Shown here in pieces: positions 2,715 to 15,663 of a stretch of DNA of 40,885 nucleotides (its first letter is position 1; every line of letters starts with the position of its first letter). Below the pieces are notes generated by a model. That model did not search any database and was not told the DNA's origin. It was given only the letters and a program-made list of their open reading frames with translations. The stretch covers positions 1 to 40,885 of the forward strand of contig JAUNVU010000008.1 in assembly GCA_030537525.1 (NCBI GenBank), given 5' to 3'. The stretch is from Eubacteriales bacterium (GTDB taxonomy: Bacteria; Bacillota; Clostridia; Saccharofermentanales; DTU023). A program made the position numbers and the translations under genes.

Positions 2715-4784
2715 ATGCCCAGAGAATTCTCATTAGAGAATACGAGAAATATCGGTATCATGGCCCACATCGATGCCGGCAAGACTACTACCACAGAGCG
2801 TATCCTCTACTACACCGGTAAGATCCATCGCCTCGGTGAAACGCACGAGGGTGCGGCTACCATGGACTGGATGGAGCAGGAGCAGGAGCGTGGTATTACC
2901 ATTACCTCCGCAGCAACCACAGCCCAGTGGAAGAAATGCCGGATTAATATTATCGATACCCCAGGCCACGTTGACTTTACGGTTGAGGTTGAGCGTTCAC
3001 TGCGCGTCTTGGATGGTGCAGTGACGGTTTTCTGTGCCAAGTCAGGTGTTGAGCCGCAGACGGAAACTGTCTGGCGTCAGGCCGATACCTACAAGGTACC
3101 CCGCCTAGCCTATGTCAATAAGATGGACATTACAGGTGCCGATTTCTTCCGCGCCGTGCAGACTATGAAGGATCGTCTCGGCTGTAATGCCGTGCCCATT
3201 CAACTGCCAATTGGTAAAGAAGACAATTTTACAGGCATCATCGACTTAATCGAGATGAAGGCCGACCTCTATCATGACGAGGATCTGGGTAAGTCAATTA
3301 CTGAAGCTGAGATTCCCGAGGATATGATGGAGCTTGCTCAGGAGTATCACGAAAAAATGGTCGAGGCAATAGCCGAGACTGATGATGCTCTATCTGAGAA
3401 GTTCATCATGGAAGAAGAGATTACCATTCCAGAGTTAAAGGCTGCCCTACGACGCGCCACTTTGAGCACTGAAATTATCCCAGTGACCTGTGGTTCATCT
3501 TACAAGAACAAGGGCGTTCAGCTCTTGCTTGATGCTGTTGTAGACCTCATGCCTTCACCTCTAGATATCCCACCAATTGAGGGTATCAATCCCGATAATG
3601 GTGAGGAAGATGTCCGCCGCGCCTCGGATGAGGAGCCGTTCTCGGCTTTGGCCTTCAAGATTGCAACAGATCCATACGTCGGTAAATTATGTTTCTTCAG
3701 AGTTTATTCAGGCGTCTTGGAATCAGGCTCCTATGTACTTAATAGCAGTACTGGTAAACGCGAGCGCATCGGTAGAATTCTGATGATGCACGCCAACCAC
3801 CGTGAAGAGGTGCAGAGTGTCAACGCAGGCGATATTGCCGCCGCTGTTGGCCTGAAGGAAACCTCTACTGGCGATACTCTCTGTGACCAGAAAGCACCAA
3901 TTATTTTGGAGTCAATGGAATTCCCAGAACCCGTCATCTCCGTCGCTATTGAGCCGAAGTCGAAGGCTTCACAGGAGAAGATGGTCATCGCCTTGGCTAA
4001 GTTGGCCGAAGAGGATCCCACCTTCAAGACTCACACTGATGCCGAGACAGGCCAAACCTTGATCTCTGGTATGGGTGAGTTACACCTCGACATTATTGTT
4101 GACCGCCTCTTCCGTGAGTTTAAGGTTGAGGCCAATGTCGGCAAGCCCCGTGTCGCCTATAAAGAGAGCATCACTAAGCCAGCGAGAGCCGAAGGCAAGT
4201 TTGTCCGCCAGTCTGGTGGTCATGGCCAATATGGTCACGCCGTTATCGAAATCGAGCCTCTAGAATCTGGTGAGGGCTACGAATTTGTCGACAAGACAAT
4301 CGGTGGTTCAGTACCTAAAGAATTTATCAAGGCTGTAGACGAAGGTATTCAAGAGGCTATGAAGGGTGGCGTCATTGCTGGTTATCCAGTTGTGGACATC
4401 AGAGTCACCCTGGTCGATGGTTCATCGCATGAAGTTGACTCCTCAGAAATGGCCTTCAGAATCGCTGGTTCAATGGCACTCAAGAATGCTATGCGCTTAG
4501 CAGGTCCCGTTCTCCTCGAGCCAATCATGAAGGTCGACGTAGTCGCACCAGAAGAGTACCTCGGTGATGTTATGGGTGACCTCTCAGCTCGTCGTGGTCA
4601 AATCCAAGGTAACGAGCTACAAGGCAAGAGCATGGCTGTGGAAGCCTTCGTGCCACTTTCAGAGATGTTTGGTTACGCAACAACCCTGCGTTCAAATACC
4701 CAGGGACGCGGCACCTTCGTCATGCAGATATCACATTTCGACCAAGTGCCAAAAGGCATGATGGAAGATTTGGCAAGCAACTAA
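2715..4784 (+). CDS. fusA: Translation elongation factor G
   Basis: A 689-residue EF-G, the GTPase that drives translocation of tRNA and mRNA on the ribosome. The G-domain has [10 protein letters not shown] (residues 17-26), RGITI (58-62), DTPGH (80-84, with the catalytic His84) and NKMD (134-137). The C-terminal domains include [11 protein letters not shown] and the [12 protein letters not shown] region typical of domain V. The length is normal and no key residue is missing. AGAAGGA (2697-2703) precedes the ATG. It is co-transcribed with rpsL, rpsG and probably tuf. A second, diverged EF-G-like gene lies at 13582-15663. Confidence 0.98.
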
Positions 4785-7500: not shown

Positions 7501-7528
7501 AGACCCGCAGATTTGTGCGGGTCTTTAT
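7501..7528. terminator. Terminator between convergent genes
   Basis: AGACCCGCA pairs with TGCGGGTCT, followed by TTATTA on the plus strand. It lies between fprA and the minus-strand PLP enzyme gene. The plus-strand T-run is modest and the minus-strand one weaker, so it serves fprA mainly and perhaps both. Confidence 0.75.
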
Positions 7529-7540
7529 TACTGTGTTTAA

Positions 7541-8776
7541 CTAGATTTTAATAGAGTCGAAATCGAGATTTGGATCTGCGTCTAATTTGGCAAAAGTAGT
7601 ACCGATAATGGCCGCGGCTTTTGCCAATATTTCCTTGGACTGTGTAGCGGAATAAGAGCTGCGTAGGAGGCAGGAGTTCTCGTCGACGGCGGGCGGCAGC
7701 ACGGGATTGACGTAGACACCAGCGGTGAGGAGGGCCTGTGCCGAATAGAGGGTGCGAGCGGGGTTGCCGCTGAGAATGGCGATAATGGGGATGATGTCGT
7801 TGCCCTTGTCTAGGAGTTTGACGGCTGGGTATTTCTGAAGTTCTGCCCACATGAAGCGGCTATTTTCTTGCACCTGAGTTACTCGCTCAGGTTCGCTGGC
7901 GAGGATCTCTTGGGCGGCGAGGGCGCTGGCGGCCATGGCTGGCGAGATGCTTGCACTGAAGATGAAAGGACGCGAAACGTGCTTGATATAGTTTATGACG
8001 TCGGCGCTTCCCGCCACGCAACCACCGAGCGAGGCATAAGATTTGGAGAAAGTATTCATGATGAGGTCAACCTCAGCCTCAAGGCCGAAGTGCTCCGCCG
8101 TACCAGCGCCGCTGGCACCGAGAACGCCGAGTCCGTGGGCGTCATCGATCAGGATGCGGGCATTGTACTGGCGGGCGAGGTCGACGATCTCGGGGAGCTT
8201 GCAGATCTCACCTTCCATGCTAAAAACGCCATCACTGACGATGAGGATGCCAGCTTCCTTGCTTCCACTTCCACGGATCCTCCTCAGAAGTCGCTCGAGT
8301 TCACCCATATCGCTGTGGGCGTACTTATAGGTCTTGGCGAAGGATAGACGGCAGGCATCGTTGATGCTAGCGTGGTTGAGTGCGTCGGAGAGAATATAAT
8401 CGTTGCGACCAGCAATGGCAGAGATGATGCCGAGGTTGGACTGGAAGCCCGTCGAAAAGCAGAGACAGGCCTCTTTCTTGAGGAAGCGAGCCTGGGCTTC
8501 TTCAAGTTTCCTGTGTAGATCGAGATTACCGTTGAGGAAGCGAGAGCCAGAGCAACCAGTACCGTAATGCTCAATACTGGCGATGGCAGCCGCCTTGACT
8601 CTGGGATCGGAGGTCAGCCCTAGGTAATTATTGGAACCGAGCATAATGACCTCATGCCCCTCCATGGTGACGACATTATCCTGGGCGGAGCTAATCTCGT
8701 GAAAATAAGGGTAGATGCCATATTGCTTGGCAATTTCCACGCGTTTATAAAGACGACACTTCTCGAAAATATCCAT
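7541..8776 (-). CDS. PLP-dependent alpha-oxoamine synthase, serine-palmitoyltransferase-like
   Basis: A 411-residue member of the alpha-oxoamine synthase family, whose members condense an amino acid with an acyl-CoA or acyl-ACP and release CO2. The PLP lysine is K245 in NTFSKSYASLGG. This TFSKS form, together with YPYFHEI (22-28), GTGCSGSRFLNG (72-83) and CFSTGFQSN, resembles what I recall of serine palmitoyltransferases such as the Bacteroides enzyme more than Kbl or BioF. A catalytic Asp/His pair is present in LIDDAHGLGV. The start codon lies 9 bases after the stop of the upstream reductase gene, with AGGAT overlapping that stop, so the two are translationally coupled. An automatic annotation would probably say glycine C-acetyltransferase. 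The family is certain; the acyl substrate and amino acid are not. Confidence 0.85.
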   Translation of the reverse strand: MDIFEKCRLYKRVEIAKQYGIYPYFHEISSAQDNVVTMEGHEVIMLGSNNYLGLTSDPRVKAAAIASIEHYGTGCSGSRFLNGNLDLHRKLEEAQARFLKKEACLCFSTGFQSNLGIISAIAGRNDYILSDALNHASINDACRLSFAKTYKYAHSDMGELERLLRRIRGSGSKEAGILIVSDGVFSMEGEICKLPEIVDLARQYNARILIDDAHGLGVLGASGAGTAEHFGLEAEVDLIMNTFSKSYASLGGCVAGSADVINYIKHVSRPFIFSASISPAMAASALAAQEILASEPERVTQVQENSRFMWAELQKYPAVKLLDKGNDIIPIIAILSGNPARTLYSAQALLTAGVYVNPVLPPAVDENSCLLRSSYSATQSKEILAKAAAIIGTTFAKLDADPNLDFDSIKI

Positions 8777-8785
8777 AAAACAATC

Positions 8786-9595
8786 CTATCTAGCGTAGAT
8801 GCGCCCGATTATATAATTGCTAAGTCGTACTGGCAAGATCTTTGCAAGTAGGAGTACCGCTCGGTATTTTAGTTCGAAGCCTCTCAAGGCTTTAGGTCGG
8901 CATCGCCGCTCTGAGAGCTTGACAATAGTCTGGGCTAGACCTTCTGGACTGCTGCCGCCGAGCTCGTCAGCAGCCATTTTAGCGATTGCACGGGCCGGCA
9001 TGTCGCCATATAAAACTTCTTCCTCGGGTCGCTTGGGATAGTCGCGGACGGCGGTGAAGCCCGTTGCCAGATCACCTGGCATGATCGCTGTAAACGACAG
9101 TCCTGCCGCCCTGAGCTCGTTATTCAAAGCGAGGGCCAGCTGATTGATCGCGGCCTTCGACATGGAGTAGAAGGCCTGGAATGGCAGTGCCAATTCGGCC
9201 GCCACTGAAGAAATGAAGAAGGTGCGGCCGCGGCTTATACGCAGCAGGGGGAGGGCAGCTTGAACCGTCCGCACTGCGCCAAAAAGATTGACAGCAAATT
9301 GCTGTTGCATAGTGGCATCGTCTGTACACTCGATGGCGCCTGCGATTCCGTAGCCTGCGCTGACGACCAAGACGTCAATTCCAGTCATTCCGTCAAGTTC
9401 AGCCGTCAATTGGGCAAAAGCCGCACGCACACTCTCCACTTGACTGACGTCTGCTGTGATATGCCGAATTCCTGGCTGATCTTCACCACTACGACTGAGT
9501 TCGAATACCTGATAGCCCGCCTGGGTGAAGGCTAGGGCGCAAGCGCGCCCTATACCCGAGGAACCACCCGTAATGACAGCAACTTTTCTCGACAT
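8786..9595 (-). CDS. Short-chain dehydrogenase/reductase, possible 3-ketosphinganine-type reductase
   Basis: A 269-residue classical SDR. It has TGGSSGIG (9-16) for NAD(P)H binding, a DV pair at 49-50, SAGYG at 79-83 in place of NNAG, and the catalytic residues S130, Y143 and K147 (YSMSK). The C-terminus has an amphipathic or hydrophobic stretch (LLLAKILPVRLSNYIIGR) of the kind found in SDRs that act on lipids. It lies between uraA and the serine-palmitoyltransferase-like gene, with 14- and 9-base gaps. A reductase of this class follows serine palmitoyltransferase in sphingoid-base synthesis, so the pair makes chemical sense. The substrate assignment is inference from that context. AGGAG (9602-9606) precedes the ATG. 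Confidence 0.8.
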   Translation of the reverse strand: MSRKVAVITGGSSGIGRACALAFTQAGYQVFELSRSGEDQPGIRHITADVSQVESVRAAFAQLTAELDGMTGIDVLVVSAGYGIAGAIECTDDATMQQQFAVNLFGAVRTVQAALPLLRISRGRTFFISSVAAELALPFQAFYSMSKAAINQLALALNNELRAAGLSFTAIMPGDLATGFTAVRDYPKRPEEEVLYGDMPARAIAKMAADELGGSSPEGLAQTIVKLSERRCRPKALRGFELKYRAVLLLAKILPVRLSNYIIGRIYAR

Positions 9596-13581: not shown

Positions 13582-15663
13582 ATGAAAATCTATCCCGCAA
13601 AAGACATTAAGAACATCGCTTTCATGGGCCACAGTGGCTCTGGTAAGACCTCTGTGATCGAGGCCATGCTGTTTAATGCCAAGGTTATTAACCGCATGGG
13701 TAAGACACAAGATGGTAATACGGTGACCGACTTTGACCAGGAAGAGCAGCGCCGCGGTTCCTCAATTGGAACGAGCTATGCCGCCATGGAGTGGAAGAAG
13801 AATAAATTCAATTTGATTGACATTCCAGGTGACTTCGACTTCCTTGCAGAACAGCGACTCGGCATGAGAGTTGCTGACAGCGTTATTCTCGTTGGCTCGG
13901 CCAAGGATGGCCTGTCTGTTGGCGCTGAGAAGACTCTGCGTCTAGTCGAACATGCCAATAAGCCAGCAGCATTATTGTTGAATAAGGCTGACGAGCCCAA
14001 TGCTGACTTCGCCAAGACAGTCGCCGCCTTCCGTGAGGAATACGGCAATAAGCTAGTTCCCCTCATGATACCTATTAAAGATGGCGATAATTACTTAGGC
14101 TATGTAGATATTCGCAATGGCAAGGCTTACCACTATGAGAAAGATGGCCAGGTGAAGGAGGTTGACGCACCTGCAGAGCTAGCCGCAGAGATTGAACAAT
14201 ATCACAGTGAATTGCAAGAGCAGATCGCTGGTGTAGACGAAGAGCTAATGATGAAATACTTCGATGGCGAGGCATTTACACCAGAAGAAGAGGAAAGAGG
14301 TCTTTCTCAGGCCATGGCGGAGGGGAATCTCATCCCTATCTTCAGCTCTTCTGCACTTAATAATCAGGGAATTGCCCAGTTATTAGACTTTGCAGCTAAG
14401 TTCTTCCCATGTGCTGCAGATGCTCCACCAGTTAAGGCTAAGAATGAGGCTGGCGAAGAGATTGAACTGACTCAAGATCCAGATGGCCCGCTTGCGGCAT
14501 ATGTCTTTAAGACGATTGTCGATCCATTTGTCGGCCGTATCTCTCTATTTAGAGTCTATAGTGGCACCTTCACTACAGAGAATAATGCCTATAACCCACA
14601 GAAGCATATTGAAGAGAGGATTTCTGCCCTCTTCGCTATGCAAGGTAAGAAGCAGATCGAGGTCAATGAGATTAGGGCTGGTGACATCGGTGCCATTGCC
14701 AAGCTGAGTGAAACTGTCACCAATGATAGCCTCTGCCTGAAGGACGAACCAATCTTCATCAAAGCAGTTAAGATGCCAATACCTTGTCTGTCGATGGCCA
14801 TCGTCCCCGCCAAACGTGGTGAAGAGGACAAGATCATGCAGGGTATGCAGCGCCTAATGGATGAGGATCCCTCATTTGAGATCAGGAGTGATAGAGAAAC
14901 TGGTCAGCTTCTACTTTCAGGTCAGGGTGAGGTTCAGCTAGAGGTTCTGAGAGCTAAGCTCAAGGGCAAATACAATGTTGAATCTGTCCTCGAAGAAGCT
15001 AGAGTGCCCTATCGTGAGACCATCAGGAAGAAGGTCAAGGTACAAGGTAGACATAAGAAGCAGTCCGGTGGTCACGGTCAGTACGGTGATGTTTGGATTG
15101 AGTTTGAACCTTGTGATTCTGAGGAGCTGGTCTTCGAAGAGAGCATCTTCGGTGGTGCTGTTCCGAAGAACTACTTCCCAGCAGTTGAGAAGGGATTACA
15201 AGAAGCAGTTGTTGAAGGCGTCTTAGCAGGTTACCCGGTCGTCAATCTCAAAGCGACCTTAGTCGATGGTTCATATCACGATGTTGACTCAAATGAGATG
15301 AGCTTTAAGCTCGCTGCTAGACTGGCTTATAGAAACGGCTTGCCACAGGCGGATCCAGTCCTCTTAGAGCCAATCGCCTCCGTCAAGGTCCACATTCCAG
15401 ATAATAACCTCGGTGATATCATGGGTGATATCAGTAAGCGTCGTGGCCGTATTCTCGGCATGGGTGCAGACGAGGATCGCGGTTATCAGGTGGTTGAGGC
15501 CGAGGCGCCAATGAGCGAATTAACCAAGTATGCAACCGACCTTAAATCAATGACCCAGGGTCGAGGTTGGTTTACAGTTGAATTTGCGCGATACGAGCAG
15601 GCTCCTTCAGATGTAGCAGAGAAGGTAATAGCTGCAGCAGCTAGGGACGCTGAAGAAGAATAA
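13582..15663 (+). CDS. EF-G-like GTPase, second paralogue
   Basis: A 693-residue protein that lines up with EF-G over its whole length. It has GHSGSGKTS (16-24), NKAD (135-138), [14 protein letters not shown] and GDISKRRGRILG. It is not a second standard EF-G. Switch I reads RGSSIGTSY instead of RGITITSAA, and the DTPGH motif is D80-I-P-G-D84, with Asp exactly where fusA has the catalytic His84. Family knowledge: EF-G-like paralogues in Bacillota often lack this His, commonly having Tyr. Such proteins bind GTP and ribosomes but their role is poorly defined. It has its own near-consensus promoter and a terminator, so it is regulated apart from the str operon. Tetracycline-protection proteins are also EF-G relatives, but I see no reason to choose that label. 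Confidence 0.88.
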   Translation: MKIYPAKDIKNIAFMGHSGSGKTSVIEAMLFNAKVINRMGKTQDGNTVTDFDQEEQRRGSSIGTSYAAMEWKKNKFNLIDIPGDFDFLAEQRLGMRVADSVILVGSAKDGLSVGAEKTLRLVEHANKPAALLLNKADEPNADFAKTVAAFREEYGNKLVPLMIPIKDGDNYLGYVDIRNGKAYHYEKDGQVKEVDAPAELAAEIEQYHSELQEQIAGVDEELMMKYFDGEAFTPEEEERGLSQAMAEGNLIPIFSSSALNNQGIAQLLDFAAKFFPCAADAPPVKAKNEAGEEIELTQDPDGPLAAYVFKTIVDPFVGRISLFRVYSGTFTTENNAYNPQKHIEERISALFAMQGKKQIEVNEIRAGDIGAIAKLSETVTNDSLCLKDEPIFIKAVKMPIPCLSMAIVPAKRGEEDKIMQGMQRLMDEDPSFEIRSDRETGQLLLSGQGEVQLEVLRAKLKGKYNVESVLEEARVPYRETIRKKVKVQGRHKKQSGGHGQYGDVWIEFEPCDSEELVFEESIFGGAVPKNYFPAVEKGLQEAVVEGVLAGYPVVNLKATLVDGSYHDVDSNEMSFKLAARLAYRNGLPQADPVLLEPIASVKVHIPDNNLGDIMGDISKRRGRILGMGADEDRGYQVVEAEAPMSELTKYATDLKSMTQGRGWFTVEFARYEQAPSDVAEKVIAAAARDAEEE

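Follow-up and report, generated by a model that had tools for sequence, protein, structure and literature searches.

A linked pair of genes for a serine palmitoyltransferase-type enzyme and a KdsR-type reductase, a probable sphingoid-base module, in a Clostridia bacterium

The stretch of DNA analyzed here (the window, 40,885 nucleotides) belongs to a metagenome assembly of 1.0 Mb, estimated to be about 69% complete, and carries a compact pair of genes on its minus strand (Table 1). The gene for a short-chain dehydrogenase/reductase (SDR) comes first and is followed, after a gap of 9 nt, by the gene for a PLP-dependent condensing enzyme of the serine palmitoyltransferase (SPT) type. Both open reading frames lie where a first-pass annotation had placed them, and the sequence elements that it singled out were all found, namely TFSKS around K245, YPYFHEI (residues 22-28) and GTGCSGSRFLNG in the PLP enzyme, and a ribosome site of the second gene that overlaps the stop of the first. 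Read along the minus strand, the sequence across the junction is ATC TAC GCT AGA TAG GATTGTTTT ATG. Because the SDR stop overlaps an AGGA that stands 7 nt before the SPT ATG (at 8776), translational coupling is plausible, and to judge from this junction the two genes are probably coupled. A uracil-permease-type gene lies upstream and ends 14 bp before the SDR gene, with a strong terminator-like site (11291-11272) between it and the gene that precedes it. The permease gene may share the SDR transcript; it is placed outside the module because it is not adjacent to the pair in the relatives that were read.

Table 1. Coordinates of the gene pair and its features in the window, and of the fusion genes of sister genera
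Feature	Position	Strand	Size	Basis or remark
SPT-type alpha-oxoamine synthase, PLP-dependent condensing enzyme	7541..8776	-	411 aa	NCBIfam, PDB sequence and fold, tree, active-site residues
KdsR-type short-chain dehydrogenase/reductase, predicted 3-ketosphinganine reductase	8786..9595	-	269 aa	best NCBIfam model NF049977, invariant Ser130-Tyr143-Lys147, SPT adjacency
Codon of the PLP-binding lysine K245 (TFSKS)	8042..8044	-		invariant in the family alignment and in every alpha-oxoamine synthase compared
Codons of GTGCSGSRFLNG, SPT-type motif	8528..8563	-	residues 72-83	motif comparison with SPTs, Kbl, BioF and ALAS
Overlap of the SDR stop (8788-8786) with the AGGA (8787-8784) that serves the SPT gene as ribosome-binding site	8784..8788	-		sequence
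Codons of the hydrophobic/amphipathic C-terminus of the SDR	8789..8893	-	residues 235-269	LP...Y pattern in SPT-linked SDRs; helices in the model
Intrinsic terminator-like hairpin just 3' of the SPT gene	7501..7524	-	9-pair stem	pattern match only
Fusion ORF, sister genus	L241:3482-6814	-		similar long ORFs in G001-G004, G012-G014, G016 and G018-G030
Fusion ORF, sister genus	L242:3006-6491	-		as above

Sequence comparisons support the assignment of the PLP enzyme, at the level of family, to the SPT type. Among NCBIfam models it scores 475.7 bits with SPT, 358.9 with BioF, 350.0 with Kbl, 224.6 with ALAS and 182.7 with the CqsA-type model, and against PDB sequences the Sphingobacterium SPT 3a2b gives 371 bits and the next family 251; such a likeness to SPT goes far past what chance would give, and the original suggestion that the enzyme is closer to SPT than to Kbl or BioF is thereby upheld. 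The structure predicted with AlphaFold (a monomer, mean pLDDT 89.9) has 3a2b as its top fold match, with TM scores of 0.91/0.95 and 46% identity. In a tree of 123 proteins, the enzyme falls inside a 103-row SPT clade (SH-aLRT 98) that contains the SPTs of Sphingobacterium multivorum (3A2B), of Parabacteroides and of S. paucimobilis, the last represented by the PDB entry of its N100C variant. Kbl, BioF, ALAS and CqsA lie outside this clade, CqsA and ALAS as long branches in a quick tree search, with the CqsA reference shortened by trimming and its branch very long. The first-pass annotation had set a place in a Kbl or BioF clade as a refutation of its reading; the tree instead puts the enzyme among SPTs, with the SPT-diagnostic residues present.

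The active-site positions agree with this placement. The PLP lysine K245, the stacking histidine H135, D211, H214 and the carboxylate arginine R372 are all present, and the SPT references match the enzyme at N82, A275 and N357, where E. coli Kbl, E. coli BioF and an ALAS differ; S. multivorum SPT (3A2B) is the same as the window enzyme at all eight positions. At the GTGCSGSRFLNG motif, SPTs including 3A2B show (S/T)GxxGSRxLNG, and Kbl, BioF and ALAS differ. Identity as Kbl and identity as BioF were each rejected on tree placement together with the residues at 82, 275 and 357, and ALAS and CqsA were likewise rejected on tree and residues. The SPT equivalog model NF047600 (SerpalmtaseCFB) has a cut-off of 640 bits, which the enzyme, at 475.7, does not reach, and which no homologue reached in the samples of the order or of the phylum.

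The SDR is a classical adh_short protein (PF00106) with a TGGSSGIG motif, and not epimerase-type; its sequence supports a KdsR-type assignment, again at the level of family. The best NCBIfam model is NF049977, 3-ketodihydrosphingosine reductase (KdsR), with 167 bits against 144 for the next, and the same model was best for 8/8 SDRs tested elsewhere, seven of them SPT-adjacent and one a second copy nearby. The score lies well under the equivalog cut-off of 400, and the Bacteroidales genomes that were searched likewise fall short of it. Because both scores are below their cut-offs, neither protein of the pair is filed in its NCBIfam equivalog. In an alignment of SPT-linked SDRs, the TGGSSGIG motif, S130, Y143 and K147 are conserved, with the Ser130-Tyr143-Lys147 set invariant, and R35, the arginine after the second strand, is also invariant and would suit NADPH as cofactor. 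The hydrophobic C-terminus remarked on in the first reading reappears as a conserved amphipathic/hydrophobic stretch with an LP...Y pattern, which the model folds into two helices (residues 242-253 and 256-268). In the fold comparison, human 17-beta-HSD1, an enzyme that reduces bulky hydrophobic ketones, came out on top, and the matches included no solved KDSR structure.

A profile of the SPT family was run against 84,980 genomes, one per species, and from a larger set of loci the 80 best were retained. The window SPT falls in a clade of 55 proteins (support 98) drawn mainly from Clostridia-type Bacillota and Acholeplasmataceae, which also includes a few Bacteroidota, Spirochaetota and Kiritimatiellota assemblies. 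A KdsR-type SDR gene lies within 1.5 kb of the SPT gene in 34 of these 55 loci, upstream on the same strand in 15, downstream on the same strand in 14, upstream and opposed in three, and downstream and opposed in two; among the SDR-bearing loci, the arrangement of the two genes changes at least seven times on the tree. Within this clade, SDR homologues account for 35 of the 105 ORFs within 400 bp of SPT and for 3 of the 489 farther away (Fisher p ~1e-25, a descriptive value, as the loci are related). No recurrent neighbour besides the SDR was found in the Bacillota SPT loci. A bCerS-like (375-aa) neighbour within 1.5 kb was found in 0/55 loci of the clade and an epimerase-type reductase neighbour in one, and the other 44 SPT loci include 20 with a conserved 375-aa neighbour, 14 with an epimerase-type reductase and 8 with an SDR. 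No Pfam or NCBIfam model names the 375-aa family; to judge from context and size, this protein and the epimerase-type reductase are probably bCerS and CerR. A linked SPT-KdsR unit is thus the usual arrangement in the Bacillota/Mollicutes clade, without a bCerS neighbour, and this is what is new here.

Several single loci in this collection have features of their own. At L028:4101-9518 (minus strand), the SPT gene is the last in an apparent operon with FeoB, small methyltransferase-like, LPG_synthase_TM and CDP-alcohol phosphatidyltransferase genes, and a convergent SDR gene adjoins it; speculatively, the CDP-alcohol phosphatidyltransferase and LPG-synthase-type genes of this operon hint at a phospho-headgroup. 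At another locus, the ORF directly 3' of SPT (L160:7956-9368, minus strand) fuses classical SDR and nitroreductase domains, and at its sister locus only an 81-aa ORF was called (L147:9249-9494, minus strand), which is related to the end of that fusion. L076 and L090 (records named Paludibacteraceae), L102 and L122, which come from Bacteroidota, Spirochaetota and Kiritimatiellota assemblies, have SPTs that branch within the Bacillota-type clade, and a matching SDR accompanies those of L076 and L090; such non-Bacillota SPTs would reflect either transfer or mis-binning.

Comparison with systems already described brings out what the window pair shares and where it departs from them. In the tree neighbourhood of the S. 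multivorum SPT (Sphingobacterium and Mucilaginibacter, both Bacteroidota), SPT stands beside the 375-aa protein and the epimerase-type reductase, whereas its partner in the window is a KdsR-type SDR. The Caulobacter model has N-acylation first and then reduction by CerR (PMC11087976), and genes for Spt, bCerS and CerR are often clustered (PMC11334938). The Caulobacter condensing enzyme is homologous to the window SPT (PMC11087976, PMC11334938), but that pathway uses bCerS and CerR where the window clade has a classical SDR and no bCerS-like neighbour. A functional parallel is seen in Bacteroides thetaiotaomicron, in which the SPT BT_0870 and the 3-ketosphinganine reductase BT_0972 carry out the same two steps as predicted for the window pair, in the same order, and the reduction-first order has been shown for BT_0972 (PMC9278070). 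Judged by their locus numbers, the two BT genes are separated by about 100 genes; the window pair, by contrast, is a bicistron. The reduction-first (KDSR) logic appears to persist in one lineage, where the genes for SPT and reductase adjoin each other and bCerS is not seen.

We consider it quite probable that this pair is a minimal module for sphingoid bases, in which serine and a long acyl thioester would be converted to 3-ketosphinganine and then to sphinganine. The PLP enzyme would join a long-chain acyl thioester (CoA or ACP) to an amino acid, for which L-serine is the likeliest candidate, losing CO2 and yielding a 3-ketosphinganine-type amino-ketone. The SDR would then use NADPH to reduce this 3-ketone, giving a long-chain base of the sphinganine type, probably while docked through its hydrophobic C-terminus on the membrane that holds the substrate. 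The first-pass annotation had already proposed condensation followed by ketone reduction. The SPT clade and the linked KdsR-type SDR bear out that scheme, and the substrates and products, like the cofactor and the membrane docking, are ones that we infer. A single-query search with the bCerS candidate found none in the host or in the SPT-bearing relatives of its family, and a profile of the candidate gave three weak partial matches and no full-length match in 38 host-family genomes, including 8 other SPT carriers. Because no bCerS candidate was found in the host or in these relatives, the product may not be ceramide.

Other readings of the pair differ in the amino acid used or in the whole pathway. 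The same chemistry with alanine or glycine would give 1-deoxy-sphingoid bases or other long-chain amino alcohols instead of sphinganine. Spt can alternatively take alanine, yielding 1-deoxyceramides, according to the Black Sea study (PMC11334938), and sequence alone gave no serine/alanine discrimination for the PLP enzyme; the active-site residues compared are, however, those of the serine-bound S. multivorum SPT, and we regard this outcome as unlikely. A start enzyme for sulfonolipids (SulA/CFAT type) would use cysteate to make capnine-type lipids, and the structures of SulA, the cysteate acyl-ACP transferase of Alistipes, are homologous, with fold and PLP chemistry common to the window enzyme (PMC9304779). 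We find this reading barely credible, since the PDB cysteate transferase 28eh gives only 203 bits against 371 for SPT, and since Lys281 of SulA, which is Ala in SPT and is a mark of cysteate transferases (PMC9304779), corresponds to Ala275 when matched by position relative to the PLP lysine. SulA identity was rejected on this published diagnostic residue.

Two further roles were also weighed against the sphingoid-base reading. In threonine catabolism, the PLP enzyme would be glycine C-acetyltransferase (Kbl) and the reductase threonine dehydrogenase; Kbl is homologous, with its 350 bits, and a relative of the same family (G031) has an alpha-oxoamine synthase beside an epimerase-type oxidoreductase (L029:8472-10623, plus strand), as expected of a Tdh-Kbl pair. 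That synthase, however, sits on the Thermus BioF/Kbl branch, whereas the window enzyme is in the SPT clade with SPT residues, and the window SDR is of the classical adh_short KdsR type and not epimerase-type as in the Tdh-Kbl layout, which makes this role very improbable. A place in biotin synthesis, as a divergent BioF, is as hard to credit as the sulfonolipid role: BioF is the second-best NCBIfam model (359 bits) and the host assembly, itself incomplete, yielded no alpha-oxoamine synthase besides the window enzyme, but tree and residues contradict BioF, none of the other window ORFs was recognised as a biotin gene, and the conserved partner of the enzyme is a KdsR-type SDR.

Sphingolipids are usually credited to animals and Bacteroidota. 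Scores at the level of the order are bimodal, with 459-534 bits for the SPT type and 412 or less for others, and in the phylum, of which 398 genomes were sampled, 19 genomes other than the host's score 534-571 bits, with the next at 430. The SPT-type enzyme is therefore present in about 5% of sampled phylum genomes, a patchy trait, and a genus-mate of the host (G008, 96% complete) is without SPT and without the SDR. The suggestion that such a trait would be new in Bacillota must be softened to this extent; the enzyme is indeed there, but some other members of the phylum have it already. Both enzymes are of known kinds, and the finding is not categorically new. Spt-like proteins were already listed in 38 phyla by the Black Sea survey, which also raised the replacement of bCerS/CerR by non-homologous proteins (PMC11334938). 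A literature search returned no paper combining sphingolipid, Bacillota, SPT and genomes.

Contamination or mis-binning of the window is unlikely, because rpsL, rpsG, fusA, tuf, rpoB and rpoC (named from their translations) share it with the pair. The host RpoB is closest to Bacillota: it shares 60-68% identity with complete or almost complete RpoB from assemblies named Clostridiaceae, Firmicutes and Lachnospiraceae, and 54%, over the main piece, with that of a Bacteroidota genome. The window also has two elongation-factor-G-like genes (2715-4784 and 13582-15663, both on the plus strand), one of them within the rpsL-rpsG-fusA-tuf cluster and the other a divergent paralogue ahead of rpoBC.

Effects on host immunity and metabolism have been reported for bacterial sphingolipids, for instance those from gut Bacteroides, and in work on gut sphingolipids the producers are counted mainly as Bacteroidota. 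If Clostridia-type and cell-wall-less Bacillota make sphingoid bases, lists of producers and metagenome-based attributions would need revising, and the SPT-KdsR arrangement is also relevant to the dispute over whether reduction or N-acylation comes first. Among cell-wall-less Acholeplasmataceae, the SPT-SDR pair is present at three loci (L065, L078 and L081), the second from the type strain of Peloplasma aerotolerans. Hydroxylated fatty acids of the 3-hydroxy C18:0 and C16:0 kind are otherwise odd for a mollicute, and another mollicute, Acholeplasma axanthum, was reportedly found in the 1970s to have sphingolipids with amide-linked 3-hydroxyhexadecanoate. P. aerotolerans, which has no cell wall, contains 3-OH C18:0 (4.1%) and 3-OH C16:0 (1.8%) (PMC11122141). 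These acids would fit the amide-linked chains of a sphingolipid, a consistent though indirect sign, and as a cultured carrier this species makes the sphingoid-base claim directly testable by lipidomics.

A different arrangement is seen in the sister genera g2, g5 and g6 of the host family, which are without a standalone SPT. Many of their genomes encode a protein of 1110-1170 aa that joins AMP-binding, phosphopantetheine and alpha-oxoamine-synthase domains (checked in two), and many hold an unlinked SDR of the same clade as the window SDR. A hand count over 38 family genomes, taking the SDR against either synthase, gave 26 with both, three with the SDR only, four with a synthase only and five with neither (p = 0.01, for genomes that are related and in some cases incomplete). 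Standalone SPT and fusion synthase occur together in 0 genomes of the host family, and the fusion is apparently an alternative to standalone SPT; its synthase domain scores better with BioF than with SPT. Because KdsR-like SDRs occur unlinked in sister genera that are without standalone SPT, the SDR may serve other ketones. As a conjecture that could well prove wrong, we suggest that a substantial minority of monoderm Bacillota/Mollicutes may use a two-gene SPT-KdsR route to sphingoid bases without bCerS/CerR, with either an unrecognised N-acyltransferase or free or headgroup-bearing bases, and that in the sister genera the AMP-ligase/ACP/alpha-oxoamine-synthase protein would replace SPT and feed the same kind of SDR. 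The SPT of Rhodobacteria acts together with AcpR and AasR, each a protein of its own (PMC9386255), and the fusion would package these three roles in one protein.
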